Origin: Candidatus Nanoarchaeia archaeon
Lineage (GTDB): Archaea > Nanoarchaeota > Nanoarchaeia > SCGC-AAA011-G17 > JAFCDX01
Direction: 5' to 3'
Length of the DNA: 17,581 nt
Assembly: GCA_028717785.1 (NCBI GenBank)
Contig: JAQUND010000019.1
Coordinates: forward strand, 9,156 to 26,736
Below are positions 2,417 through 17,111 of this stretch, piece by piece. Both the position numbers and the translations under genes were made by a program. Position 1 is the first letter of the stretch. Each line of letters starts with the position of its first letter. The notes under the pieces were generated by a model that saw only the letters and a program-made list of their open reading frames with translations, was not told the DNA's origin and ran no database searches.

Positions 2417-3349
2417 CTATAATATTGCATTAAAACTGTTTAAAATAATACCAAATTTACCAGTATTATATGTATTTTCTTTAAAACAATCCATTACTAC
2501 AGCAGCCCTTTCATTTCTACTTTTTAATAATACGGCTGACATATAACCTAATATAATATATCTAACTGTTTCCGGTTCATCTAATTTATTATTTTCCTTC
2601 AATTTTCTTAATACTTCTGAAACATCTCCCCATTTACTTTTTATATTTAATAATACTCTACATAATTCTATTATTTCTGGATCATCATCAATATTAGTAT
2701 TACTATTTAAATATTTTAATTGGTCTTTTTCTTTTTCTATTTCAATAATACTTTCTAATAATACTAAGGACTTTCTAGGACTTCCATCAGCTTTTTCTGC
2801 TATAGTTTCTATAACTTCATCTGATATTTTTACTTTTTCTAATTTACATACTCTTTTTATAACTAATATTAATTCTTCTATTTTTAATTGTTTAAACTTT
2901 ATTTCTGTACTTCTATTCCTAATTGTATTTATTATTTTATTAGGTTCTGTAGTACATATAAAAAAGTAACAATGTTCTGGAGTATCTTCTAAAGCTTTTA
3001 ATATAGCATTCATAAAATTATTATTAAGTTTATGAGCTTCATCTAAAATAAAAACAGTAGAATTTCCATCTGTAGGAGAATACCTCATTTGATCTATAAT
3101 TTGTCTAGCTGTATCAATTCCTCTATCTGATGAAGAATTAATTTCATTAATAGATAATTCTCCAGCATTTAAAATATATTTAGCCATTATTCTAGCAACT
3201 GTAGTTTTACCACATCCAGATGGACCTGATAAAAGAAAAACATGGCTATGGTTCTTTTTATTTAAAATACTTTTTAATGAAAGTATAGCTTCTTTATTCC
3301 CTTCCATTTCTTCAAAAGTTGATGGCCGATATTTAGTATATAATGTCAT
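2417..3349 (-). CDS. DNA polymerase clamp loader large subunit, AAA+ ATPase (DnaX/RFC/gp44-like)
   Basis: This 310-residue protein loads the sliding clamp (the gene at 7032-8093) on primed DNA using ATP. The whole AAA+ core is present: Walker A GPSGCGKTT (42-50), Walker B VFILDEAH (99-106, DEAH), sensor 1 CTTEPNK (132-138), an NRSTEIKF segment (145-152) at the place of the clamp-loader SRC arginine-finger motif, and sensor 2 GSPRKSL (189-195). The N-terminal TLYTKYRPSTFEEMEG is the typical clamp-loader opening (YRPxxFxE). After residue 210 an all-helical collar domain follows. Length matches T4 gp44 (about 320) rather than full bacterial DnaX. No separate small subunit is recognisable in the window. 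The start has AAGGAG 8 bases upstream. Confidence 0.92.
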   Translation of the reverse strand: MTLYTKYRPSTFEEMEGNKEAILSLKSILNKKNHSHVFLLSGPSGCGKTTVARIMAKYILNAGELSINEINSSSDRGIDTARQIIDQMRYSPTDGNSTVFILDEAHKLNNNFMNAILKALEDTPEHCYFFICTTEPNKIINTIRNRSTEIKFKQLKIEELILVIKRVCKLEKVKISDEVIETIAEKADGSPRKSLVLLESIIEIEKEKDQLKYLNSNTNIDDDPEIIELCRVLLNIKSKWGDVSEVLRKLKENNKLDEPETVRYIILGYMSAVLLKSRNERAAVVMDCFKENTYNTGKFGIILNSFNAIL

Positions 3350-4194: not shown

Positions 4195-4377
4195 TCAAAA
4201 TTTTTTTATTGTTTTTATTTTATTTTTTGGTGAATTATTAATAATTTTAATTAAACAGTCTATACAAAAAATATGAACATTTCCTATTATATCTTCAATA
4301 TGAACAGTTAAATTATTTTTACTATCACAAATATCACATTTTGATTCGTTATCATAAAATAATACTTTATTTTCCAT
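4195..4377 (-). CDS. Small zinc-ribbon-like protein, function unknown
   Basis: This 60-residue protein has two CxxC pairs, C14-x2-C17 (CDIC) and C38-x2-C41 (CIDC), which together would bind one zinc. The tail is basic (NNSPKNKIKTIKKF). Its ATG lies 11 bases inside the end of the polymerase gene, and AAGGAG sits about 10 bases upstream in the polymerase 3' end, which supports the start. A nucleic-acid or polymerase-accessory role is a guess from context. Confidence 0.65.
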   Translation of the reverse strand: MENKVLFYDNESKCDICDSKNNLTVHIEDIIGNVHIFCIDCLIKIINNSPKNKIKTIKKF

Positions 4378-6970
4378 TTAATATAACTCCTTTAGACATA
4401 TTAGCCCAATTCCCATTAATATCTGAAACACCTTTTTCTATTTGTAAAGGAACTATAAGCCAATCCCAATACTCTCTTATTTTCTGTGTTCCATAATACC
4501 ATATTAAATAATCTAATTCTTCTTCCTCCTCTGGTGGAAAATCTGGATAAATACTATCATGAATTTGCCCATCTATAATAGTTTGCATTCTACGTTTTTT
4601 TATTTGTTCTAATAATTTAATTAATGTCCATAATAAACAATGAAAAGCTGGACCTTGTACTTGATAATTTAATATTTCATTATTAGTCATAGGTCCTTGA
4701 AATCTAAATCCATTTAAAGTATCTATATATCCATTTTTATTATATGTCTTTACTGTTTTTTCTTTCCATTCATATCCTACATTAAATTCATTCCAAAAAT
4801 CTTGTTCTACTTTTTTTACATGATTAATATAATCATCTAAATTATATATTCCTTGTTTTTTTAAATATATTCTAGTTTCTTTTTCACAATTTTCATATAA
4901 TTGAGAAGCTGTATTTTTATACCATGATCCATAAAAAGTAGGAAATATAAAACTATTTTTAGTTACATATCTAACATTTTTAGAATATCCTTCATTTTTC
5001 ATTACTTCATCAATAGACATTAAAAATAATTTAGCCGCAAATCCTCTATGGGGATCTTTTCCTGATTCTATATATTTAATTAAATTAGGGTCTTTATTAC
5101 AACAAGCTATTATTTTTACTTCCATAGCTCCGTAATCATATTCTCCTAATATATTTCCTTTTCTGGGACCTAACAATTTTCTTAATAGTTTAGCAGCTTC
5201 TTCATCATGTTTAGGTATATTTTGAAAATTAGGATCAGAACTAGATGATCTAAAAGAGCTAACAAAATTAAGATTATAAAAAGAATGTAATATATTATTA
5301 TGTGATTCTCTAATAAATCCTTTTAAATAAGTATTATTTATTTTTTGCCATCTCCTCCATTCTAAGCAATCTTTTACTATAGGTATTTTATATTTTTTTA
5401 ATGATTCTATGTCACTTTTAGGTTTATTTGATTTTAAAGTAGTTTCTTTTACTTCATATTTTAAAATATTAAAAAGTAAATGAGTAATATCCTGGGGAGC
5501 ACTTATTCTGAATTGTTTATCTTTATCCCATTTTTTTAATTCTTCTGATTTTAATATTTTTTGTTCTATTAAATCCATTTTGTTTTGTAAGTTATCATAT
5601 TCTTTTTTAGCTTCTATTTCATTAAATACTATTCCATTTTGTTCTAATTCTGATAATGCCATAGAGCCTTTAAAAAAGAATTTAGCTCCTTTTCTTAAAT
5701 GGGGTTCTAAATGTTCTTTTTGATATTCATATTCTTTAAATGTAAATAAACTATCAGCAGCATTATATAATAATTTTTTATCTAACGGAGATTCATCTAT
5801 TCTATTTATTGCATTAGCTCCATATATTTCTACTTCTTTTGGTAAAGCTTCTAAATAAGGATCAATATCAGAATCATATCCTAATACACCAAAATGAATA
5901 TAAGTATAAAACTTTAGATTAGTCTTTTTATTATTATATAAAGAATGCCCCCCTAACATAGTATCCCAATAAAAATTATTTATTTCTATTCCTTTAGTAT
6001 CATTAAATCCTCCACGTACTATACTCCATAAGTTTTCAAACTTTCCATTATGGCATATTTTTTTTACATTACTATCTAAAAATTGAATAAATCTTTTTCT
6101 AAACTTTTTATCATTAAAATAAGGAAAAGAATATGAAAATAAACCATCTGATAATGAAACACAACTAATATGATGGCCTTCTCTATGTGGTTTTTTCCCT
6201 GTAGTTTCATAATCAAAAGATACATATTCTTTATTAGTAAATTCTTCTATTATTTCTATTGCTTTATCTTTATCATAAATAGGAATACAATCCGATAAAT
6301 AATTACTACTATAAAAAGGTTGCTTTGATAATTCTATAGCTTTTTGTATAGTATTTTTTATTTGGTTTTTTATTATTAAATCTTCTCTATCTTCATTTTT
6401 TCCTTTTTTATATACTGATAATAAATCCCAAGTTGGACATATCCATTTTTTTAGTTCCTGATCTGGTATAAATGTATTTACCCAATCTACTATAGAACAT
6501 CCTGAAATCCTTCCTTGTAGTCTATGTCCTATTAAAGCTTCTATAGAAACTTTTCCTAAAGTTATTATTACTTTAGGATTAATTCTTTCTATATCTTTTT
6601 GCAAATATTTTCTACAAGCATTTATTTGTATATTAGTAAGTTTATTAGTTGTATGGCATTTTACAGCATTAGTAAAATAAAAATCATCATATAAATCATA
6701 TCTTAATTCTAAAATAATATTTTTTAATAATTGTCCTGTTTTTCCACTAAATTGTTTATTTTTTTCGTCTTCTGTTTTTCCTGGATTTTCATTTATAATT
6801 AATATTCCTAATTTTCCATTTCCCGATAATTTCATTTTAGGAGAATTACAAGTATTAGATAATCCACATTTAGAACAAGAATAAATCACTGGTTTTTTTA
6901 TTTTAGATTTTACAATTTCATCTCCACGAATTATAGATGTTTCTTTTATATCAAAAAATCCTTTTTTCAT
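4367..6970 (-). CDS. Family A DNA polymerase with N-terminal UDG-like domain and 3'-5' exonuclease
   Basis: This 867-residue replicative polymerase joins three modules. Residues 30-215 resemble family 4 uracil-DNA glycosylases: C32-x2-C35-x69-C105-x13-C119 matches the FeS ligand spacing, and NENPGKTED (60-68) and TNAVKC (100-105) match its motifs. The HPS catalytic motif appears as PTWDLLS (179-185), without His. Residues 245-410 are a DEDDy exonuclease: FDYETTG (D253, E255), HNGKFE (307-312, Glu where Asp is usual) and YNAAD (402-406). The polymerase domain has motif A EYDYGAMEVKIIA (D612), motif B R667-x3-K671 leading to FYG (679-681), and motif C IHDS (803-806). A UDG-like domain fused to a family A polymerase is known from SPO1-type phages. 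It follows its sliding clamp gene, with the ribosome site AGGAAG. Confidence 0.93.
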   Translation of the reverse strand: MKKGFFDIKETSIIRGDEIVKSKIKKPVIYSCSKCGLSNTCNSPKMKLSGNGKLGILIINENPGKTEDEKNKQFSGKTGQLLKNIILELRYDLYDDFYFTNAVKCHTTNKLTNIQINACRKYLQKDIERINPKVIITLGKVSIEALIGHRLQGRISGCSIVDWVNTFIPDQELKKWICPTWDLLSVYKKGKNEDREDLIIKNQIKNTIQKAIELSKQPFYSSNYLSDCIPIYDKDKAIEIIEEFTNKEYVSFDYETTGKKPHREGHHISCVSLSDGLFSYSFPYFNDKKFRKRFIQFLDSNVKKICHNGKFENLWSIVRGGFNDTKGIEINNFYWDTMLGGHSLYNNKKTNLKFYTYIHFGVLGYDSDIDPYLEALPKEVEIYGANAINRIDESPLDKKLLYNAADSLFTFKEYEYQKEHLEPHLRKGAKFFFKGSMALSELEQNGIVFNEIEAKKEYDNLQNKMDLIEQKILKSEELKKWDKDKQFRISAPQDITHLLFNILKYEVKETTLKSNKPKSDIESLKKYKIPIVKDCLEWRRWQKINNTYLKGFIRESHNNILHSFYNLNFVSSFRSSSSDPNFQNIPKHDEEAAKLLRKLLGPRKGNILGEYDYGAMEVKIIACCNKDPNLIKYIESGKDPHRGFAAKLFLMSIDEVMKNEGYSKNVRYVTKNSFIFPTFYGSWYKNTASQLYENCEKETRIYLKKQGIYNLDDYINHVKKVEQDFWNEFNVGYEWKEKTVKTYNKNGYIDTLNGFRFQGPMTNNEILNYQVQGPAFHCLLWTLIKLLEQIKKRRMQTIIDGQIHDSIYPDFPPEEEEELDYLIWYYGTQKIREYWDWLIVPLQIEKGVSDINGNWANMSKGVILNGK

Positions 6971-7031: not shown

Positions 7032-8093
7032 TTATTCTTCATCATCTTCAAAAGTATTTACTATTTGTACTCCATCATTATGGATAAATACAATTTTAGA
7101 TGGTTCTTTGTCTTTACACTTTAAATAAAAATTATTACTAAATTTTAAACCTTGCTCTAAGAATGTATAATCAATAAGAATACTAATATTAGGTATATTT
7201 TTTATAGGTTCATCCCATTTTACTTTTTCACTATATTTACCACTGGATCTTTCACTATATACTTCAATATAATCATTAGTAAATATTAATTTAATACTAT
7301 TAAATAATTCAATATTCATTGATAAAGCAGAAGCTCTATTAATAGCGTCCCATAAATTCTTAGGTAAAGTTCCTTTTATATCATTTTTTTCTTTTTTATT
7401 TTCTGACACTATTCTTTCTATAGTAGTATAAGGAAATAAATCACTTTGTAATTTTTTACAACTAAATATAGTTCCATCTTCTGATTGAAAATGCACCCAT
7501 GAATTATCTATAAAATAATTAGTAATATTAGGTAATTTTATTAATTCCTTTGTAACTTCATCACTAATCCAAAACTGTTCTTTTATTACTGAATCTAATT
7601 TAAACCAATTTATTCTTATTTCATCTGTTGATATCATAATATCTTCATTTAAAAATATTCCTGATAAACTTGATTTACTAGAAGAAAATAAACAGATATT
7701 AATAGCATCAAAAAACTTTTCTGGTAATTTATTCCATTTTGGTTTATTAGGAATTAATTTTTCAATATGTTCAAAAATATTATTTTCTAATAAAATTAAT
7801 TCAGCTCTAGCAGATTTATTTTTTATTATCCATTTATTTTCTTTTTGTATAATTTTTATAGTATCAGATTTAAACCTATTAATTAAATCATAAAAATCTC
7901 TTGCTTTAATAGAACCTTGAAGAGAATTATCTAAATTAAATGGAACAGTTATAGATATATTGTCATTATAACTATGTATATAGTTATCTTTAAATATAAA
8001 TGTATCAGCCCCCTCTAAAATAGTGTTTCCAGTTTCTACACCTGGAAGTGCTTTTCCCATAGCATTTAATAAATCGTTTCTGTTAATTTCCAT
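7032..8093 (-). CDS. DnaN-like sliding clamp (DNA polymerase processivity factor)
   Basis: This 353-residue protein has no enzymatic motif and shows the alternating beta-strand/helix pattern of a DnaN-type clamp with three repeats. The N-terminal LLNAMGKALPGVE (9-21), the mid LPEKFFDAINICLF and LPKNLWDAINRASAL segments that open repeated domains, and IDYTFLEQGLKF followed by SKIVFIHNDG near the C-terminus resemble the last-domain strands of clamps. Length is close to bacterial beta clamps (about 370). It lies just upstream of the polymerase, with a clamp loader gene in the same block, which supports the call. The terminus is acidic (FEDDEE). The start has AGGAG. Sequence similarity is remote, so a structure prediction is the right test. 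Confidence 0.75.
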   Translation of the reverse strand: MEINRNDLLNAMGKALPGVETGNTILEGADTFIFKDNYIHSYNDNISITVPFNLDNSLQGSIKARDFYDLINRFKSDTIKIIQKENKWIIKNKSARAELILLENNIFEHIEKLIPNKPKWNKLPEKFFDAINICLFSSSKSSLSGIFLNEDIMISTDEIRINWFKLDSVIKEQFWISDEVTKELIKLPNITNYFIDNSWVHFQSEDGTIFSCKKLQSDLFPYTTIERIVSENKKEKNDIKGTLPKNLWDAINRASALSMNIELFNSIKLIFTNDYIEVYSERSSGKYSEKVKWDEPIKNIPNISILIDYTFLEQGLKFSNNFYLKCKDKEPSKIVFIHNDGVQIVNTFEDDEE

Positions 8094-8113
8094 TTTTTAC
8101 TCCTGTACTAATA

Positions 8114-9169
8114 TTATTTTAGTATTGTATTATATATATTTTCAGCTATAGCTTTCATTAATAATGGTGGAACTGCTCTTCCTAATCTTTCTATTTTATT
8201 TTTATAATCTTCTCCTAAATAATAATCATCAGGAAATCCCATTATTCTAATAGCCTCTTTTACTGTAAATTTTCTATTATCCCAATGACATATAGAAGCA
8301 GCCCCAATATTTGACGCCATTGCTACTAGTGTTTTGGCTGGTAAATATGGGGAGCATTTTTTTAAATTAAAACGCTCCTTATAATCTTCCCCATATTTTA
8401 GTGCACATAATCGTTTATAAATTGAATATTTTTCTATATTCACCTCTAATAAATCAGCTTCTGTGTTCTCTATAGTAGAGAAGGCTTCTTTTAGTGTTAT
8501 TATTTTCTTATTTCCTTTTGGAAATGTAATTTTTTTATTTATGTCATTACGAACTCCTATTATAATAATTCTACTTCTATTTTGTGGGGTATTAAAATAT
8601 TTAGCATTTAATACTTTATACATAACTTTATAACCAATTTTATTAAAATTATTTATAATAGTATTATTATCTTTAAATAAAGATAAATTACTACCTAATA
8701 TATATTTTGATTTTCCTATAGTAAGTCCTTTTACATTTTCACATACTATTACTTTAGGTTGTATTTCATTTGCTATTCTAATAAATTCAAAAAATAAATC
8801 GTCTGTTCTTTGAATTGTATCAGAATATTTTTTTTCTTTTCCCCATAATTTATCTATTTTACCAGATGTAGAAAAAGAAGCGCATGGTGGAGAGCCATCT
8901 AAAATATCTAAAGATCCTTTTTGTATTCCTATTTTTTTTATAATTTTATTTCCAGTTAATTTTCTAATATCATCAATAAATATTTTAGTATCAGGATAGT
9001 TTTTTTTGTAAACATCATAAGCATTTTTTATAAATTCATTAATAGCTAATATATTTCCTCCTGCTAATTTGTATCCTGTAGAACTTCCTCCACATCCAGC
9101 AAATAAAGATATTACATTAAATAATTTTTTACTACTAGCTTTATATACATCTTCTAAATAATATATCAT
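8114..9169 (-). CDS. DNA C5-cytosine methyltransferase with GR in place of GN in motif X; candidate carboxymethyltransferase
   Basis: This 351-residue enzyme adds a one-carbon or larger group to C5 of cytosine in DNA. All core motifs are in order: I FAGCGGSSTG (23-32), IV GSPPCASFS (92-100, catalytic C96), VI ENV (144-146), VIII QNRSR (196-200), IX FTVKEAIRIMGFPDDY (301-316) and X GRAVPP (330-335). The recognition region (about 203-285) is short, and the target sequence cannot be read. The odd point is motif X, where family members have GNxVPP but this one has R331 (AGA codon at 8177-8179). A basic residue at this Asn allowed an engineered CpG enzyme to use carboxy-SAM (from memory). The ATG overlaps the stop of the CmoA-like gene by 4 bases (ATGA) and has only a weak GGA site, so translation is coupled. 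No restriction nuclease is nearby. Confidence 0.93.
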   Translation of the reverse strand: MIYYLEDVYKASSKKLFNVISLFAGCGGSSTGYKLAGGNILAINEFIKNAYDVYKKNYPDTKIFIDDIRKLTGNKIIKKIGIQKGSLDILDGSPPCASFSTSGKIDKLWGKEKKYSDTIQRTDDLFFEFIRIANEIQPKVIVCENVKGLTIGKSKYILGSNLSLFKDNNTIINNFNKIGYKVMYKVLNAKYFNTPQNRSRIIIIGVRNDINKKITFPKGNKKIITLKEAFSTIENTEADLLEVNIEKYSIYKRLCALKYGEDYKERFNLKKCSPYLPAKTLVAMASNIGAASICHWDNRKFTVKEAIRIMGFPDDYYLGEDYKNKIERLGRAVPPLLMKAIAENIYNTILK

Positions 9170-9786
9170 TTTATTATTAAATATCCTTTAAAGTTTAATA
9201 TTTGCCAAAACAATGTTATAGAACTAAATCCAATATCTTTTATCATATTAATAATATCTTGTTCATATAATAATTTCATATTTAAACGTAAATCACGCTC
9301 CTTATGAAATAATTCATCTATAGTAAAATTATTAGATTTAAAATCATAAAAACTAAAACTAAATATTTCTTGTACTTTTCCTATAGGTTGGTATACTTTT
9401 TCACATAAAAACAGTACTCCATTCTTAATAAGACTATTATATATAGTTTTAAGATAATGATATTTTTTATAGGGTTGTAAAAATTGCATAGTAAATATAG
9501 AATATATAATACAAGCATTATCTAAATTAGATATATTATTTAAATCATCATTTAAAAAATTAGTTTCTTGTGGCAAAAGATTAGAATTATCAATTCCTAT
9601 TTTTTTACATTTGGTATCTAATGATTTTAATAATTTTCCTGTACTACATCCTAAATCATATATATTCATATCTTCTATATAAAAATATTCACTCATACTT
9701 TTAATTAAATCTATTAGTAAAGAATATCCCGGTATACTTTTATTAATATGATCATCAAAATTATTAATAGTATTAAAATCAAACAT
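9166..9786 (-). CDS. cmoA: CmoA-like carboxy-S-adenosyl-methionine synthase
   Basis: CmoA turns SAM and prephenate into carboxy-SAM, normally used with CmoB to make cmo5U34 in tRNA. This 206-residue protein follows CmoA along its length: INKSIPGYSLLIDLI (14-28; SIPGYS is characteristic), SAM motif YDLGCSTG (43-50), IGIDNS (63-68), FTMQFLQP (98-105), SLIKNGVLFLCEK (118-130), SFYDFKSNNF (145-154), KERDLRLNMKL (162-172) and GFSSITLFWQILNFKGYLIIK-like end (186-206). R164 appears to align with E. coli Arg199, which binds the added carboxylate (alignment from memory). It is shorter than E. coli CmoA (247), mainly at the N-terminus. AGGAG precedes the ATG. No CmoB is seen; instead the gene is coupled to a C5-cytosine DNA methyltransferase, which suggests DNA as the target. 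An ordinary class I methyltransferase is the alternative. Confidence 0.82.
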   Translation of the reverse strand: MFDFNTINNFDDHINKSIPGYSLLIDLIKSMSEYFYIEDMNIYDLGCSTGKLLKSLDTKCKKIGIDNSNLLPQETNFLNDDLNNISNLDNACIIYSIFTMQFLQPYKKYHYLKTIYNSLIKNGVLFLCEKVYQPIGKVQEIFSFSFYDFKSNNFTIDELFHKERDLRLNMKLLYEQDIINMIKDIGFSSITLFWQILNFKGYLIIK

Positions 9787-9788
9787 AT

Positions 9789-9983
9789 TTAATCTCCTTT
9801 TTCTTTATTATTAAATTGACATTCTTTTGGAATTATAATATTATTATAAAAATAATTTTCTTCTATAAAAAATTTCCATCTAGTACAATATGAATAATGA
9901 TTTAAATCACTATTATAAATATTTGAAATCCATTTTGAATAATAAGGACATTCATTACAATAATTAATTTTAATATATATCAT
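9789..9983 (-). CDS. Small Cys-rich, probably metal-binding protein
   Basis: This 64-residue protein carries C9-x2-C12 (CNECPYY), C33 (YCTRW) and C55 (IPKECQF), a four-Cys set able to bind one zinc or an FeS cluster, in an aromatic-rich chain. I remember similar short CxxCP...C...C proteins scattered in phages and bacteria, without a function. The start is supported by AAGG upstream and by the AT element at 10001-10017. The stop is 2 bases before the CmoA-like gene, so it is co-transcribed with the modification pair. Confidence 0.6.
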   Translation of the reverse strand: MIYIKINYCNECPYYSKWISNIYNSDLNHYSYCTRWKFFIEENYFYNNIIIPKECQFNNKEKGD

Positions 9984-10000
9984 ATACTTAAAAACCTTAT

Positions 10001-10018: not shown

Positions 10019-10690
10019 TTACATATTTTTTAACGAAAATGGATTATAATTTATATTATAATCATATATATCAATACCTTCTTTTATTTTTACATATTTA
10101 ATTATTTTATATGTTATAGGAGTAAATATTATTTCTATAACAGTTTTAAATAAATAATTTGAAAAAATCATAATTAATAATATATTTATAGAATAAATTC
10201 CTAAAAAAGCAATAAATACAAAAATAATACTATCTAATAATTCTCCGATTAATGTTGATCCTATTGTTCTGATCCATAAATATTTTCCTTTAGTAAATAT
10301 TTTTATTTTAGATAATATAAAAGAATTTGAAAATTCTCCTGAAAAATAACCTATTAAACTAGCTAAAACAATTCTAGGAACTAACATTAAAATATTATTA
10401 TAATCATTTTGATAAATCCATGTTTCCTCAGCTGGAAGAATACCAATAATCCATATATTTATAGACATTAATATAATCATAAAAAAACCAGTCCATATAA
10501 CTTTTCTAGATGCTTTATATCCATATACTTCTGTTAAAACATCTCCAAAAATATAAGATAAAGGGAATAATAAAGTACCTCCATCAAATACAAATGGACC
10601 TAATTGAATCATTTTACTAGCTAAAATATTAGATAAAATTAATACTCCTACAAATATTCCAGTAATAATTGGTAATAATTTTTCTTTCAT
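10019..10690 (-). CDS. yhhQ: YhhQ/QueT-like queuosine precursor (preQ0/preQ1) transporter, membrane protein
   Basis: This 223-residue integral membrane protein of the Vut_1/YhhQ family (ECF-type or stand-alone preQ0/preQ1 uptake) has about six hydrophobic segments: 8-27, 36-52, 66-88, 103-118, 150-172 and 174-196. The family hallmark FPLSYIFGDVLTEVYGYKAS (42-61) and the segment SGEFSNSFILSKIK (116-129) with KGKYLWIRTIGSTLIGELLD (134-153) are clear. It would import 7-deazaguanine precursors across the host membrane. It lies next to a TGT/DpdA-like gene, with a radical SAM gene farther upstream, so the imported base probably feeds DNA or tRNA 7-deazaguanine modification. AGGAG precedes the ATG. 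Confidence 0.88.
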   Translation of the reverse strand: MKEKLLPIITGIFVGVLILSNILASKMIQLGPFVFDGGTLLFPLSYIFGDVLTEVYGYKASRKVIWTGFFMIILMSINIWIIGILPAEETWIYQNDYNNILMLVPRIVLASLIGYFSGEFSNSFILSKIKIFTKGKYLWIRTIGSTLIGELLDSIIFVFIAFLGIYSINILLIMIFSNYLFKTVIEIIFTPITYKIIKYVKIKEGIDIYDYNINYNPFSLKNM

Positions 10691-10708: not shown

Positions 10709-11536
10709 TTAAAATAAATGGTAATTTTTTTTATTTTTTATTATAAAATTATTACTTTCATATTTATTATTAAAATAAATTACTGAAAGTATAAATCTTT
10801 TTATTGCAGATTGTTGATTAAACAAACAAAGTTCTTCTAATGTGTATCCTAAATTATTTACATAATTAGATACTTTTTTTATTCCTTCTTTAGTTCGCCA
10901 TTTAGTCATTCTTTTATTTTGTTGCATATTTAAATTTATCCATCCAAAATTAGGAAAATAAAAATCTCCACTTATAGCGTGCTTTGCTATTGTTGTGGAA
11001 TCTACAGATTTAAATGGAAATTGTTCAAATAAATTAATACTAAATACACCAAAACCGTGAAAATTAGTTTTATATCTTTTAAATATATCATTAAAAAATA
11101 ATAATCTAGCTTTATTACTTTTATATGCTACAGCCCCTAATCCTATATATTTTGAATTGTCCATATAATAATCCATTATTTTATAATCTTCACCATCATG
11201 ATAAACAGGTATAGGTGTAAAATTATTTTTAAGCATTATTTTATAATTTTTTAATGATTCTTTACCATCTATCACTTTATCTAAAGAGGCATAAAGGTCT
11301 ATTTTATTCTTATTATTTTCTAAGAATTGCATATAATCATTTATAGAAATATAAGTACCTTTTGTATCATTAGAAAAAGCTCCAGAATCCATAAATAACT
11401 TATTTATATTTTTTGGGCGATTTAATTCTTTTTTACTATTTTGAAATTGTTCAAAAGACATCATAATGTTTATACTTATATTTTTTTCTGTTAATTCTTT
11501 TTTTAATCCAAATCCCATACCATAATATATATCCAT
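10709..11536 (-). CDS. TGT/DpdA-like 7-deazaguanine transglycosylase (phage type)
   Basis: This 275-residue protein resembles phage DpdA-type proteins of the tRNA-guanine transglycosylase fold, which swap guanine for a 7-deazaguanine base in DNA. Visible marks are LFMDSGAFSN (47-56; TGT has DSGGFQ with catalytic Asp, here D50), YASLDKVID (82-90), PIPVYHDGED (108-117), YIGLGAVAY (130-138), FHGFGVFS (159-166) and SVDSTT (177-182, D179 a candidate second catalytic Asp). These follow the strand order of a TIM barrel. It lacks the TGT zinc site, as expected for DpdA. It is followed by the YhhQ transporter gene. RNA rather than DNA as the substrate cannot be excluded. The ribosome site AAGGAT lies in the end of the upstream gene. 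Confidence 0.7.
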   Translation of the reverse strand: MDIYYGMGFGLKKELTEKNISINIMMSFEQFQNSKKELNRPKNINKLFMDSGAFSNDTKGTYISINDYMQFLENNKNKIDLYASLDKVIDGKESLKNYKIMLKNNFTPIPVYHDGEDYKIMDYYMDNSKYIGLGAVAYKSNKARLLFFNDIFKRYKTNFHGFGVFSINLFEQFPFKSVDSTTIAKHAISGDFYFPNFGWINLNMQQNKRMTKWRTKEGIKKVSNYVNNLGYTLEELCLFNQQSAIKRFILSVIYFNNKYESNNFIIKNKKNYHLF

Positions 11537-11539
11537 TTT

Positions 11540-13762
11540 TTAATCCTTAAATACACTTTCACCAATTAAACTCATTTTTCTTTTTTTATTAGCCATTTCT
11601 AAGTTTTTAACAGCTTGGTTAAAATAAACTTCTTTTAATTCTATACCTATAAACTTTCTTTCTTGTAATAAAGATACATAGCCTTCACTCCCTATTCCAG
11701 CATAAGGGGAAAGAACTGTTTCTCCTGGATTAGTCCATAATTGTAAAGCTCTTTCTATAACTTGTAATTGTAATGGGCAAATATGTTTTTCATCTTTTTC
11801 TTCTCTAACCGATCTAAATTGTAAAGTATATGATTGATTAATATCAAACCATACTGGACTAGCATATCTTTGCCATACTTCTACTGGAAAAGTTTCATTA
11901 GTATGCTTTACTGGTTCTGTATTGTCTCCCGGCTTCCTCATAGTAATTAAATAATCAGGAATTCCTTGAGCACATCTAGAAGAATCTTTTTTAATTTGTT
12001 TATGTAGTAATGTTAAAGATTTTGTACGTTGCATAGCTACAACTGGATCTTTCCATATACAAACTTCTGAATGAAAAATAAAACCTTCTTTAATAAACAT
12101 TTGAATTAATATTCCTCTAAAATCCCTTAGTCCTATATATCCTTCTTTCCCTTTATTAATTTGTAAATTAGCACAATGAAAAGATAAAAGTCTACCAGGT
12201 TTTAATACTCTATATAATTCTGGAATTATAAATTTAAAATGCTCTTGAAATTGTTTAACATCTCTACAATTCCCCATATCCCTAATTGAATTAGAATAAG
12301 TATATAATGATGCAAATGGCGGACTAAAAATAGAATAATAAATACTATTATCTTTTATTTCTTTTATTTTTTCTACACAATCACCTAGTTTCATTTCCCA
12401 GTTCTTACCCATTATACTTTTCTCCTTATATTCATCTTTTATATTTTCAGTTTTAAATACATCTTGATATATTTTCATATACTTTAACATACCCTCTTGC
12501 ATTTTTTGTGCTTGCTTTTCTTTTCTATTTAAATTTTGAACTATAGGACCCTCTATATCAGCAGATATAAAATATGCATTTACTTCTTTTTCTTGGCCAA
12601 ATCTCCATTCTCTTCTCATAGCTTGATATGTTAATTCATAACTATGATCTGTAAAAACAAATATCATATTATGACAAAATTGTAAGTTTAAACCAAAAGC
12701 TCCTATTTTCTTTTTAGTAATTAATACTTTATATTTTCCATCTATAAATCCATTTAATCTTTTTTCCTTTTCTTCTACTGAATCTTTACCAGCTACCTGA
12801 ATAGAATTATCAATTATTTTTTCTAATAAATCACCTTCACTATTTAATCCGCACCATATTATCCATTGTTCATCTGATTTATTTACTATTTCAGCACATT
12901 TATCAATTCTTATTTTTATAGTTTCTTTTTTTACTTGTCTTTGATCTTCTAAAGTGGAAGCTTTATAATCAAATAATTTATTTTTACTTGAATTTAATTT
13001 TATATTTGTAGGTATAGTTATTTGTTTTATATTTAATTTAGGTAAATTATAACCTTCATCTGAAAATCCTATATCAGAAGGTTTTCTAATCATAACAGCC
13101 CAGGAACAAATCCATTTCCAAAAATCTTCTTCCGCATGTCCTTTTAGTTTCCATTGAGAAGTATGACCAGCATCATGAAAAAAGTATTTAGCTAACATTT
13201 CAGTATAAGTCATGATACCTAAAAACTCAGAATGATTTCCTAATTCCATAAAATCATTAGGTGATGGAGTAGCAGTACAAGCTAATCTATATTTAACATT
13301 ATTAAATTTATTTATTATTAAGTTTCTAGTTTTTCCATCAAATGATTTAATTATACTCGATTCATCAATAACTATTCCTATATAATTATCAGGATTAAAT
13401 TTATCCAGCATTTCATAATTAGTAATAGTTATTTTATCTTTTACTTTTCCATCTCTAGATTGAGCTTCATGTTTAAAATGAAATTTATTACCTTCCCTTA
13501 AAGTTTGATATGAAACTGATAATGGTGTAACTATTAAAATATTTCCATTTGTTTCTTTTACTATAGCATCTGCCCAAGCTAATTGCATTAAAGTTTTACC
13601 TAAACCACAATCGGCAAATATAGCAGCTTTTCCTTTTTGTAAAGCCCATTCTACTATAGCTTTTTGAAAAGGAAATAAATATTTATTTAATTTATTTGGT
13701 TTAAATCCTACTCCTATAAATTCGCTATTTTTACTTTTAAGGAAATCATTATAAGAATTCAT
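11540..13762 (-). CDS. SNF2-like helicase fused to a DNA N6-adenine/N4-cytosine methyltransferase
   Basis: This 740-residue fusion starts with a DEAD/SNF2 motor: Walker A ADCGLGKT (50-57), DESS (133-136), TATP (163-166), helicase C ITKKKIGAFGLNLQF (348-362) and motif VI QAMRREWRFGQ (380-390). Residues 452-722 form an amino-methyltransferase of the beta order, with motif IV SPPF (480-483) before motif I SPYAGIGSEGY (685-695) and FIGIELK (704-710). Blocks such as IFSPPFASLYTYS, SEVCIWKDPVVAMQRTK and LHKQIKKDSS are those of a common phage DNA methyltransferase that usually stands alone. No nuclease motif is visible at the N-terminus. A motor plus a methyltransferase suggests translocation-coupled methylation of phage DNA, perhaps against Type I/III restriction. 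The DnaB-like gene is 18 bases upstream. Confidence 0.9.
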   Translation of the reverse strand: MNSYNDFLKSKNSEFIGVGFKPNKLNKYLFPFQKAIVEWALQKGKAAIFADCGLGKTLMQLAWADAIVKETNGNILIVTPLSVSYQTLREGNKFHFKHEAQSRDGKVKDKITITNYEMLDKFNPDNYIGIVIDESSIIKSFDGKTRNLIINKFNNVKYRLACTATPSPNDFMELGNHSEFLGIMTYTEMLAKYFFHDAGHTSQWKLKGHAEEDFWKWICSWAVMIRKPSDIGFSDEGYNLPKLNIKQITIPTNIKLNSSKNKLFDYKASTLEDQRQVKKETIKIRIDKCAEIVNKSDEQWIIWCGLNSEGDLLEKIIDNSIQVAGKDSVEEKEKRLNGFIDGKYKVLITKKKIGAFGLNLQFCHNMIFVFTDHSYELTYQAMRREWRFGQEKEVNAYFISADIEGPIVQNLNRKEKQAQKMQEGMLKYMKIYQDVFKTENIKDEYKEKSIMGKNWEMKLGDCVEKIKEIKDNSIYYSIFSPPFASLYTYSNSIRDMGNCRDVKQFQEHFKFIIPELYRVLKPGRLLSFHCANLQINKGKEGYIGLRDFRGILIQMFIKEGFIFHSEVCIWKDPVVAMQRTKSLTLLHKQIKKDSSRCAQGIPDYLITMRKPGDNTEPVKHTNETFPVEVWQRYASPVWFDINQSYTLQFRSVREEKDEKHICPLQLQVIERALQLWTNPGETVLSPYAGIGSEGYVSLLQERKFIGIELKEVYFNQAVKNLEMANKKRKMSLIGESVFKD

Positions 13763-13780
13763 TTTACATCCTTTATATTA

Positions 13781-15232
13781 TTATACATTCTTTCTAATAT
13801 ATTTTTTACTTTTTACTTCATTTTGTATAGAACTATATCCATATACTTCTTTTTTCATTTTACTTTCTGTACAAGCTTTTCCTAAATCTAAACATTGCAA
13901 ACAAACTACTTGATCACTGACTGCCCTCCCTTCTCTTATTTCCATTAAACCTAATCTAATTATATTATTTTCTTTTTCTTGATTAGTTGCATTTAAACTA
14001 ACTGCCATAGTAACATGATTTATTTTTCTTATATCTTCTGAAGCATGTTTAGTTTTTATATCAGTATCAAAAGTACTTTTTTCTGTATGACTTGCGGTAA
14101 TAATAGCTATTTTTCTTTCATTAGCAAAATCTCTCAAACCTTTCCAAATATTATTAATTATTTGTCGATTATCATTATTTTTAAATCCTTTAGAAGGTTC
14201 CATATAATCGGCATAATCAATAATAATACAATCAGGAATAAAGTTTTCATAATAATATAAATTATCACAAGTACTTTTTATCATTTCCACAGTAGCTCCA
14301 ACCATAGGAATTATTTTTATTCTTCCTTTTCTATATAACCTTCTTAATTTTTTTTGAAATAAATCTATTTTACTAATATCAAATCCTTTTTTATGATTTT
14401 TTTCTTGTACTATTTTATATAAATTACTTTCTTCATCATATTCAAAATAAGCTAATTTTATATCTCTATTATATAAAGGATATCCTGTTATAGATGGCCA
14501 AGCTCTTTTTATAATTTCCGTTTCTGTCATTTCTAAAGGAATATAAATAACTTTACACCCTTGTGACATTGCTACTTCTGCACTATACCATAACCAAAAT
14601 GATTTTCCTCTTTTAGCTGGACCAAAGAAACTAACAAAATCCCCTCTAGAAATAGGTTGAATAATTTTCCCTAAATCTCCTGGAAACTTTATTATTATAG
14701 AATTTTCAATAGTTAAAGCTTCTAATATTTTATTATTATCATGTAATAAATCAACTCCTTGCCCTGTTGGTTTTTCTATTCTTTTATATTGAGATATAAT
14801 AGTATCTATTTTATCCCCATTATTAATTAATATAGCATCCTCTAATTCTTCTTTTATTAATTCTCCTGATCTTACTTTTAAATAATTTTTAGCTTCATCT
14901 ATTAAAAAATCTATATTAGTTTCTTCTGTAATTTCTTCATAATTTTTACTTAAATTAGTTAAAAATAATTTAATATTATCATTATCAGAATCATTATTTT
15001 CTTTTTCTAAAGTTTTATATTTAGATATATATAAATCTTGGATATTCTTTTTAGGAGCACATTTATATTGTTCATAATATTCTAAAATCCAAGATGCTAT
15101 AGTTTTAGAATATTTTCCTTTTAAATATTTAATTCTAAAAATAGGTATTATTTCTGTTAAATACCTATCATCTACTATCATATAAGTAATGATATTTTTT
15201 TCTTCATTTAACTTTATTGTTTCTCTTTTCAT
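13781..15232 (-). CDS. DnaB-like replicative DNA helicase (RecA-fold ATPase)
   Basis: This 483-residue ring helicase unwinds DNA at the fork. The N-terminal 1-150 is helical, like DnaB N-terminal and linker regions. The motor starts at about 185 with RGDFVSFFGPAKRGKS (Walker A 204-211), then LEMTE (233-237, catalytic Glu), Walker B CIIIDYADYM (335-344), IITASHTEK (377-385, sensor) and a C-terminal HVTMAVSLNATNQEK followed by IREGRAV (432-438). The last part KACTESKMKKEV has an unusual Cys pair (C444, C447, C454). The start overlaps the stop of the 69-aa gene (ATGA) without a good ribosome site, so it is translationally coupled. No primase gene is visible in the window. Confidence 0.88.
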   Translation of the reverse strand: MKRETIKLNEEKNIITYMIVDDRYLTEIIPIFRIKYLKGKYSKTIASWILEYYEQYKCAPKKNIQDLYISKYKTLEKENNDSDNDNIKLFLTNLSKNYEEITEETNIDFLIDEAKNYLKVRSGELIKEELEDAILINNGDKIDTIISQYKRIEKPTGQGVDLLHDNNKILEALTIENSIIIKFPGDLGKIIQPISRGDFVSFFGPAKRGKSFWLWYSAEVAMSQGCKVIYIPLEMTETEIIKRAWPSITGYPLYNRDIKLAYFEYDEESNLYKIVQEKNHKKGFDISKIDLFQKKLRRLYRKGRIKIIPMVGATVEMIKSTCDNLYYYENFIPDCIIIDYADYMEPSKGFKNNDNRQIINNIWKGLRDFANERKIAIITASHTEKSTFDTDIKTKHASEDIRKINHVTMAVSLNATNQEKENNIIRLGLMEIREGRAVSDQVVCLQCLDLGKACTESKMKKEVYGYSSIQNEVKSKKYIRKNV

Positions 15233-15442: not shown

Positions 15443-15458
15443 ATATTATATAGTATCT
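15443..15458 (-). promoter_or_regulatory. Recurrent AT element upstream of the 69-aa/helicase pair, possible promoter
   Basis: AGATACTATATAATAT on the minus strand is identical to 16 bases at 2399-2414 and contains TATAAT. The element overlaps the SNF2 gene's last codons and lies 5 bases before the 69-aa ATG, which is too close for a normal ribosome site. A leaderless or very short-leader transcript starting here is possible. Confidence 0.35.
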
Positions 15459-16834
15459 TTATTATTTTTTACTAATTTTTTTACTAAATTAGTATAATTA
15501 AATATTTCATCATTATTTTTATTATCCAATAATTTACCAACTATTTCTTGTTTAATATTTATCATTTTTATTATGTCCTTTTCGATAGTATTGGGGGCTA
15601 TTAAATAGTAAGCAAATACTGAATCTGCTTTTTGACTAATTCTATGTACTCTATCTTCTAATTGGTAGTGATCTGCTGGAGTCCATGCAAATTCTACTGT
15701 ACAAGTAGCATTAGCAGCTGTTAAAGTTAATCCTGGAACAGTTAATATTTGGCATATTATTAATTTTATTTTTTTATTATTTTGAAAATTATTTACAGCT
15801 TCATTTCTTTTTTCTCCTGTAATAGAACCATCAATATAAATACTATCTTTTTTAAAATAATTATATAAATCATTTAAAGTATTTTTATGGTAAGTTGCTA
15901 CAACTAATTTATTATCAGATTTAATATAATCTTCTATCCATTTTATAACATTGTTTCTTTTACTTAAATAAGCCAATTGTTTTAATCTATCTATATTTTG
16001 TTGAATTTCTAATCCTTTATTTATATGATCATTAGCCCATAATATAAATTGTTTTGTAGCTTTCTTATAATTTTCTAAAGCGACTTTATCAGTTTCTAAA
16101 GGAATTATTATTCTTTGTTTTGGAGGAAGGTCTTTTAAAACTTCATCTTTTACCCTTCTTAACATTAATGGATTGATTAATTCTTGTAGTTTATTTAAAT
16201 TAGTAGCTCCATTAAAAGTCCAGCCAAATCCATTATATTTAGGTCCACAAAAAGTATGTAAATATTTCCATCTATTATTAAATATATTTGAATTAAGTAA
16301 ATTAAGTATACTAAAAAATTCAGCTGGTTTATTTTTTATAGGAGTTCCAGATAAACCTATTATTTTCATAGAAGGATTTAATTTTTTTAATGTATGGATA
16401 GCTTTAGTTCTTATTGCTTTATTATTAGATATATTTTGACATTCATCAAGAATTAAAAGTTTTATATTTAAGGAAGCTAATTTAAAAATCCAAGATGTGT
16501 TATTTAATATTTTTTTATTATTTACTTTTATTTCTTGTGCTAAAATATCATAATTAATTATATAAAATGGATAATTAATAATAGGAGTATATTTTTTTCC
16601 ATATAATATTAAAGCTTCTTCATTATTCCATTCTTTTATTTCTTTTTGCCAATTCATTTTTATAGTAGCTGGACAAACTATTAAAACTGATCTAATTTCT
16701 GGATTTATAAATGTATAACCTAAAGCTTGTATAGTTTTACCTAATCCCATTTCATCAGCAAGTAATCCAATCCCATCTACTGAATCTAACCAAGAGATTC
16801 CTTTTTTTTGAAAGTTATATAATTTATTTTTCAT
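15446..16834 (-). CDS. Compact SNF2-family ATPase/helicase (SMARCAL1-like minimal form)
   Basis: This protein has about 462 residues from the ATG at 16834 (a GTG at 16852 would add six residues, MMYLNY). Numbering below uses the longer form. It is an ATP-driven DNA translocase: Walker A DEMGLGKT (33-40), DECQ (136-139), SGTP (168-171), RRVKDEVLKDLPPK (232-245) and motif V-VI ITVPGLTLTAA-like segment (about 368-380) with QLEDRVHRISQ (397-407). It contains only the two RecA-like lobes, as in phage and bacterial short SNF2 proteins. Likely roles are fork remodelling or displacement of DNA-bound proteins. The start overlaps the end of the upstream 95-aa gene, and neither candidate has a strong ribosome site. 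I prefer the ATG at 16834 because the overlap is only 11 bases. Confidence 0.9.
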   Translation of the reverse strand: MKNKLYNFQKKGISWLDSVDGIGLLADEMGLGKTIQALGYTFINPEIRSVLIVCPATIKMNWQKEIKEWNNEEALILYGKKYTPIINYPFYIINYDILAQEIKVNNKKILNNTSWIFKLASLNIKLLILDECQNISNNKAIRTKAIHTLKKLNPSMKIIGLSGTPIKNKPAEFFSILNLLNSNIFNNRWKYLHTFCGPKYNGFGWTFNGATNLNKLQELINPLMLRRVKDEVLKDLPPKQRIIIPLETDKVALENYKKATKQFILWANDHINKGLEIQQNIDRLKQLAYLSKRNNVIKWIEDYIKSDNKLVVATYHKNTLNDLYNYFKKDSIYIDGSITGEKRNEAVNNFQNNKKIKLIICQILTVPGLTLTAANATCTVEFAWTPADHYQLEDRVHRISQKADSVFAYYLIAPNTIEKDIIKMINIKQEIVGKLLDNKNNDEIFNYTNLVKKLVKNNKDTI

Positions 16835-17111
16835 ATAATTTAAGTACATCACAAAAACAAGCTATAGCATCTAATTGTTGAGATTCAAAAATTATTTCTT
16901 TCTTTTCATTATCAACTATAACTCTAGTAATATAATCATTATCTTTTACAACATAAATTATATATTTATTTAATAATTTACAATATTTTATAGTGTTATA
17001 ATCTATCCACCATTTTATACCTTTTTCATTTATAAAATCAGGTTCTTGATTTTCCCACCAGAGTAAAGTATTTTTTATTGTTTTATTAATATTATTATTT
17101 TCTTTATTCAT
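16824..17111 (-). CDS. Small protein of unknown function, coupled to the radical SAM gene
   Basis: This 95-residue protein starts on a TAATG overlap with the radical SAM stop, so it is made by re-initiation. The N-terminus is Asn/Lys-rich (MNKENNNINKTIKNTLLWW). The core has aromatic and hydrophobic strands (WWIDYNTIKYCKLLNKYIIYVV), then acidic and hydrophobic residues (RVIVDNEKKEIIFESQQLDAIACFCDV). No known motif or membrane segment is seen. Its 3' end overlaps the SNF2 start by 11 bases (29 if the GTG at 16852 is used). A partner role for either neighbour is only a guess. Confidence 0.6.
   Translation of the reverse strand: MNKENNNINKTIKNTLLWWENQEPDFINEKGIKWWIDYNTIKYCKLLNKYIIYVVKDNDYITRVIVDNEKKEIIFESQQLDAIACFCDVLKLYEK

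Follow-up and report, generated by a model that had tools for sequence, protein, structure and literature searches.

A predicted CmoA–CmoX cytosine carboxymethylation cassette adjoining DpdA- and YhhQ-like genes in a phage contig

Introduction

Can a phage carboxymethylate its own cytosines with a carboxy-S-adenosylmethionine (Cx-SAM) synthase and a DNA cytosine C5-methyltransferase encoded by overlapping genes, and with what other base modification might such a mark share the genome? The question is raised by 17,581 nt of contig JAQUND010000019.1 (assembly GCA_028717785.1; the contig is listed with 26,736 bases), hereafter the window. On its minus strand lie cmoA (9166–9786), which encodes a predicted Cx-SAM synthase of 206 residues, and cmoX (8114–9169), which encodes a predicted DNA cytosine C5-carboxymethyltransferase of 351 residues. 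Judged from sequence, this cassette very probably serves to carboxymethylate C5 of cytosines in the DNA of the phage itself; Arg331 of CmoX likely holds the carboxylate, and the adjoining DpdA- and YhhQ-like genes would place an imported 7-deazaguanine.

A system of this kind was reported in December 2025 from Synechococcus phage S-B43, whose CmoA and CmoX (SpCmoA and SpCmoX) make 5-carboxymethylcytosine (5cxmC); Arg350 of SpCmoX binds the carboxylate (PMC12783734). According to the available text of that paper, SpCmoA converts S-adenosylmethionine (SAM) and prephenate into Cx-SAM, and SpCmoX forms 5cxmC at GC with Cx-SAM as sole donor, while the R350N variant uses neither SAM nor Cx-SAM. SpCmoX treatment blocked cutting by HhaI. 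In S-B43 a ligase, CmoY, joins glycine to the carboxymethyl group; the glycine amide was found in phage DNA and bare 5cxmC was absent. The authors further selected 5,615 candidate CmoX sequences on the SPPC motif and an equivalent of R350. No other paper on a natural CmoA–CmoX pair was found in a search that missed most subscription journals and bioRxiv. The window pair, as its sequence reads, is a well-supported further CmoA–CmoX system; what is uncommon is that the cassette sits in a phage lineage with DpdA- and YhhQ-like genes as well.

Results

The cmoA–cmoX pair and Arg331

CmoX matches the Pfam DNA_methylase profile (3e-60, residues 17–346) and is complete, since the match spans profile positions 1–323 of 324. 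Its motifs are GSPPC (residues 92–96), ENV (144–146) and GRAVPP (330–335), the last being motif X with Arg331. The best solved relative is SpCmoX (8YF3, E 2.7e-73; runner-up 3e-22). The same structure is the top solved match by fold, closer than any solved 5-methylcytosine methyltransferase. Arg331 aligns with the carboxylate-binding Arg350 of SpCmoX, and both of the features used for selection in PMC12783734 are present. Arg331 is not a chance feature, because it is kept in every one of the 120 database relatives listed (the top 120 of 5,655, including the window's own protein). Matches in PADLOC to type II methyltransferases and DruM were ascribed to the common fold of C5-methyltransferases, and CmoX was not retained as a defence-system gene. 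A precedent for the residue is M.MpeI N374K, in which a basic residue replacing Asn permits the use of carboxy-SAM (as cited in PMC12783734); that variant, however, is engineered, CG-specific and without a dedicated CmoA partner, whereas the Arg of the window is natural.

The window CmoA matches phrog_4752 (150 bits) and the solved CmoA structures 1IM8 (4.5e-22), 4IWN and 4GEK. It shares K130, K150, K162, E163, R167 and F199 with the proven SpCmoA, and K162 is invariant across all 38 aligned rows. The protein is predicted to make Cx-SAM from SAM and prephenate. The activities of both enzymes, like the contact of Arg331 with the carboxylate, are inferred by homology to SpCmoA and SpCmoX.

On the coding strand, the TGA stop of cmoA shares four bases with the ATG start of cmoX (ATGA, 9166–9169), from which we infer that translational coupling is likely. 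In the preliminary description of this DNA the genes were called fused by overlap; the overlap is real, but they are two separate genes and the proteins are not fused. The complete C5-methyltransferase with GRAVPP and the CmoA relative named there were both confirmed on the minus strand. The mechanism proposed there, from carboxy-SAM made by CmoA through a motif X Arg enzyme to 5-carboxymethylcytosine, gains support from its demonstration for SpCmoX and from the alignment of Arg331 with Arg350. The remark that no such natural pair was well described has been overtaken by PMC12783734.

Association of the motif X arginine with CmoA

Relatives of CmoX were collected from viral contigs, with a single-protein query and with an alignment (A1), and from bacterial genomes with A1; the A1 searches comprise the best 80 of 326 bacterial and the best 80 of 592 viral matches. 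Before counting we dropped L058 (truncated and misaligned), CmoX open reading frames (ORFs) that were shorter than 250 residues or did not exceed 100 bits, and loci obtained via CmoA (L071–L090) or from phage records (L064–L069). Among the 229 CmoX-like ORFs kept, 135 carry Arg at the column of Arg331 and 94 do not (69 Met, 25 Asn). CmoA lies within 4 kb of 116 of the 135 Arg-type ORFs and of 0 of the 94 Met or Asn ORFs; with near-copies removed, the counts are 102/121 and 0/84. An earlier, smaller tally gave Arg in 25 of 26 CmoA-bearing rows, the exception being Staphylococcus phage F1. On a thinned tree of 138 rows, the Arg/non-Arg state needs at least four changes. A search for the same pair with a conserved Arg, suggested in the preliminary description, thus turned out strongly positive, except for the Staphylococcus phages described below.

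Two further cases bear on the association. The CmoX-like protein of Methylophilales phage Melnitz-3 (L068, 4010–5227) has Leu (GLMVAP) inside a 20-row group that is otherwise all Arg, and no CmoA match was found in its complete 141 kb record; the pattern suggests either that both features were lost together or that the donor changed. A distant lineage of C5-methyltransferases (L074, 1352–2957, and L076, 8209–10630) also lies next to CmoA and has a motif X Arg (GRSICVP). These enzymes are about 24% identical to the window's and have SFPC in place of SPPC; the two loci, 96% alike, count as one observation. The presence of Arg beside CmoA in so distant a lineage suggests convergence. The L076 enzyme also adjoins a CmoY-like gene. 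A search that requires SPPC would miss this lineage.

Several points weigh against the proposed function or against the strength of the association. The window CmoA is just 29–31% identical to SpCmoA, and it scores 105 bits (4.6e-30) against NCBIfam TIGR00740, below the curated cut-off of 193.3; it is thus a divergent CmoA relative and not an NCBIfam equivalog. The CmoA relative of another viral contig (L075) also falls below the cut-off, at 116 bits. The position of R199 in E. coli CmoA, which we take to be functionally important, is Glu in the window protein; it is Glu in SpCmoA too. As for the association, A1, the query of both best-80 lists, holds Arg-type proteins only, and the counts of Arg and CmoA ignore kinship. 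Nearby CmoA requires 11 or more changes on the thinned tree, and for 19 of the 135 Arg-type ORFs no CmoA lies within 4 kb. When ten of these records were searched whole, a strong CmoA match was found elsewhere in three (L244, L099, L126) and none above 165 bits in seven. Only phrog_4752 matches above 165 bits were counted here, because at low scores the search is unspecific and matched all 14 of 14 control genomes. Finally, in Staphylococcus phages F1 (L067, 5974–8492) and PhiSepi-HH3 (L258, 2959–4658), CmoA lies near a C5-methyltransferase with GG (GGVINQ). The motif X Arg is therefore not universal beside CmoA, and these methyltransferases either bind Cx-SAM in another way or have another role. 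In F1 an Asn_synthase-type gene stands between the two.

Other arrangements were seen among the collected loci. In L001 (9290–14531) four CmoX-like genes, each with GR in motif X, follow a single CmoA in tandem and perhaps have four target specificities. In a Met-type sister clade (GMSVPP; for example L017, L028, L045 and L062) a ParB-like gene usually lies just upstream, and no CmoA was found within 4 kb in the counted rows. In Erwinia phage Y3 (L255, 2935–4603) an asparagine-synthase-like gene follows CmoA, and no annotated methyltransferase lies within 3 kb. CmoA–CmoX pairs also occur in bacterial genomes of Verrucomicrobiota, Actinomycetota, Bacteroidota, Endozoicomonas and others. A reading of these pairs as host systems was set aside: the two inspected among 30 Arg-type ORFs (L101, Hymenobacter; L117, Verrucomicrobiota) look like prophages, because terminase genes lie within a few kb (in L117 also portal and head protease genes).

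The cassette and an empty site in a related contig

The viral contig L070, fetched by its DpdA gene, shares with the window the order hel–DnaB–helicase/methyltransferase–DpdA–YhhQ–clamp and is 81.5% identical to it in nucleotides across 5.7 kb (blastn). The alignment block on the YhhQ side ends at window position 9995 and the block on the clamp side restarts at 8104. Between them lie 30 bases in L070 and 1,890 in the window. The window-only 1.9 kb (8105–9994, minus strand) comprises a cysteine-bearing 64-residue ORF without family match at the head of the cassette (9789–9983), CmoA and CmoX. Because the cassette is missing from the same site in L070, we conclude that the two genes came or went together. 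The L070 sequence is a fragment of 8 kb; the result therefore covers the one site, and the pair may sit elsewhere in the L070 phage. In L070, the DpdA gene (4786–6261) is split by an in-frame TAA into two open pieces, and the YhhQ protein matches the window's from residue 45 onward. Both genes look damaged, and sequencing error, decay or recoding would all be compatible with their sequences. A more distant relative, L091, has the order hel–DnaB–clamp–PolA with no modification genes between them.

DpdA- and YhhQ-like neighbours

Next to the cassette on the minus strand are genes for a predicted YhhQ-like queuosine-precursor (preQ0) transporter of 223 residues (10019–10690) and a predicted DpdA-like DNA guanine transglycosylase of 275 residues (10709–11536). 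The former matches Pfam Vut_1 (2.2e-52) and TIGR00697 (122.9 bits, above the cut-off of 50.95). The latter matches phrog_887 (2.9e-34), which PHROGs names 'queuine tRNA-ribosyltransferase'; its phage relatives by tblastn (40 of 222 listed) mostly bear this annotation or a similar one, and some are annotated as 7-deazaguanosine inserting enzymes. In a Foldseek search with the DpdA model (predicted local distance difference test score, pLDDT, 85.3), the top two matches were tRNA-guanine transglycosylases (E about 7e-4, TMq 0.60–0.61, 9–11% identity), with other TIM barrels close behind from E 2.7e-3. D50, D86 and D179, which are presumably catalytic, do not vary among the 17 aligned rows.

YhhQ is known as a preQ0 transporter carried by some phages, and phages with DpdA but without synthesis genes could depend on the host or on uptake (Hutinet et al., PMC6884629, in the text available). 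The window resembles phages of the Seurat, CAjan and 9g types in its DpdA-family transglycosylase. It differs from them in that its DpdA is about 25–31% identical to the listed phage records and is joined to a CmoA–CmoX cassette, and in that a YhhQ-like transporter and no preQ0 synthesis genes were seen in the window. Viral scans with the window's CmoX, CmoA, PolA, DpdA and YhhQ-like proteins gave no copy of its own contig, and the YhhQ-like query found no viral relative there. In 5 of 80 viral loci (L260–L264; L260/L261 and L263/L264 look like near copies) a YhhQ-like transporter gene is no more than about 2 kb from a DpdA relative, and the DpdA–YhhQ pair therefore recurs without CmoA.

DpdA and CmoA occurred together in no other record searched, though many of these records are fragments and some are near copies. 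DpdA (phrog_887) was found in none of 40 CmoA-bearing records, while the 41st, L070, matched as positive control. It was also found in none of five further phages with a tblastn match to CmoA (a sixth record, L068, has no CmoA), in a search that gave no match at all, controls included. Conversely, none of the best 80 among 450 DpdA-relative records gave a match to CmoA (TIGR00740), with L075 matching as positive control. In the literature searched, the two were found together only in PMC12783734, in whose available text DpdA is cited merely as an example of another system. The DpdA and YhhQ neighbours, left out of the preliminary description, are the more novel part of the locus.

Gene neighbourhood

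The minus-strand gene run of the window is a phage replication and DNA-modification neighbourhood. Upstream of DpdA are hel (15446–16852) and a DnaB-like helicase (13781–15232), and a protein of 740 residues (11540–13762) combining an SNF2/DEAD-type helicase with an N6/N4 amino-methyltransferase domain (Pfam SNF2-rel_dom and N6_N4_Mtase). This helicase–methyltransferase fusion might provide a third modification, N6-methyladenine or N4-methylcytosine. Homologues of it lie directly upstream of ParB–CmoA–CmoX in L003 (5417–10036), L005 and L061, which look like near copies of one another. Downstream of the cassette are a DnaN-like sliding clamp (7032–8093), a family A DNA polymerase whose N-terminal domain belongs to the uracil-DNA-glycosylase superfamily (4367–6970; Pfam UDG, 5.3e-20) and a clamp loader (2417–3349).

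Discussion

In the mechanism that we propose, CmoA would turn SAM and host prephenate into Cx-SAM. CmoX, translated in step with CmoA, would flip out cytosines; the Cys of GSPPC would attack C6 and the carboxymethyl group would be moved onto C5. Arg331 would select Cx-SAM over SAM, likely by holding the carboxylate. The target sequence may be similar to the GC at which SpCmoX acts, and the mark may shield phage DNA from restriction, as the block of HhaI by SpCmoX would suggest. The YhhQ-like transporter would import a 7-deazaguanine base, likely preQ0, and the DpdA-like enzyme would put it in the same DNA. S-B43 has the same two enzymes, with the catalytic SPPC and the Arg in GRxVPP, in one gene cluster (identities to the window of about 42–46% for CmoX and 29–31% for CmoA); it differs in that CmoY, for which no counterpart was found in the window, sits between CmoA and CmoX, and in that its whole genome gave no DpdA match. 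Closer in layout is Synechococcus phage S-CRM01 (HQ615693), with overlapping CmoA and CmoX genes, no CmoY between them, and clamp and clamp-loader genes nearby. S-CRM01 is, however, a T4-like cyanophage of 178.6 kb, without a DpdA match.

The carboxymethyl group need not be the final mark: 5-carboxymethylcytosine could be an intermediate only, to which a CmoY-type amide ligase elsewhere in the phage, or another ligase, adds glycine or another amine. The preliminary description took 5-carboxymethylcytosine as what is written into the DNA, which stands as a step of the chemistry and less surely as end product, given that S-B43 uses the group as a handle for CmoY. Asparagine-synthase-like genes (Pfam Asn_synthase) were found in at least 11 of 41 records searched, a lower bound with soft negatives, because the model missed an SpCmoY-like ORF in L002. 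A ligase could also lie outside the window, which is part of a longer contig: the window's own CmoX is listed from the contig of 26,736 bases. On the other hand, no ligase-like ORF was found in the 17.6 kb of the window, where a Pfam scan covered 18 of the 24 listed ORFs (the remaining six have at most 88 residues), and three CmoY-type queries gave no match among the window ORFs. The complete phage S-CRM01 likewise has CmoA and CmoX and no Asn_synthase match in its 178.6 kb. A further ligase step seems to us rather unlikely, if still a serious candidate; bare 5cxmC is a possible end product in the window phage, since no CmoY-like ORF was found in the window and the S-CRM01 pair occurs without an Asn_synthase match.

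The two pairs of genes might also act on something other than phage DNA. CmoA could serve tRNA, or drain SAM, next to an ordinary 5-methylcytosine enzyme: its best-known role is the synthesis of the tRNA nucleoside cmo5U with CmoB (PMC10491745, in the text available), NCBIfam labels the window CmoX a dcm-type methyltransferase, and PMC12783734 itself raises the question whether SAM depletion affects the host. We consider this highly improbable. Arg331 and CmoA associate across very different phages, and wild-type SpCmoX did not use SAM, as the available text of PMC12783734 has it. No tRNA gene was found in the window, which is part of the phage genome, nor was a CmoB-like ORF seen there, as had been noted at the outset; all ten of its ORFs of at least 200 residues are otherwise assigned. 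The DpdA- and YhhQ-like genes, for their part, could serve host tRNA queuosine or be decaying, leaving the phage DNA with one modification only. The PHROGs name, the resemblance of the predicted fold to tRNA-guanine transglycosylases and the damaged look of both genes in L070 speak for this, and Hutinet et al. regard the status of DpdA phages without preQ0 synthesis genes as hard to predict (PMC6884629, in the text available). Yet both genes are intact in the window, DpdA sits in a replication and modification neighbourhood, enzymes of the Seurat/CAjan type are among its phage relatives, some with the annotation 7-deazaguanosine inserting, and phages such as 9g have 7-deazaguanines in their DNA (same source). 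A role in host tRNA or decay thus appears unlikely to us, and the window phage probably carries two unlike base modifications, cytosine 5-carboxymethylation and a 7-deazaguanine.

We also offer, as a tentative proposal that may well prove wrong in part, that both bases of the G–C pair are disguised by unrelated chemistries in a 3.5-kb island: imported preQ0 for guanine through DpdA and 5-carboxymethylation for cytosine, with the cassette added to a lineage that already had DpdA and with bare 5-carboxymethylcytosine as end product.

The window pair would add an AT-rich phage lineage, different from the cyanophage of the first demonstration, to the range of 5-carboxymethylcytosine, a very recently described DNA modification. 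Because the motif X Arg and CmoA are tightly linked, carboxymethyltransferases could be called from sequence by a simple rule; a second solution might be sought in the Staphylococcus phages that depart from it. Together with DpdA, the natural presence of the cassette in the window and its absence from the same site in L070 provide a test case for the stacking of unrelated base modifications in phages. The case touches on the reasons why a single mark would not suffice for a phage and on the way in which polymerases and type IV restriction enzymes deal with such marks.
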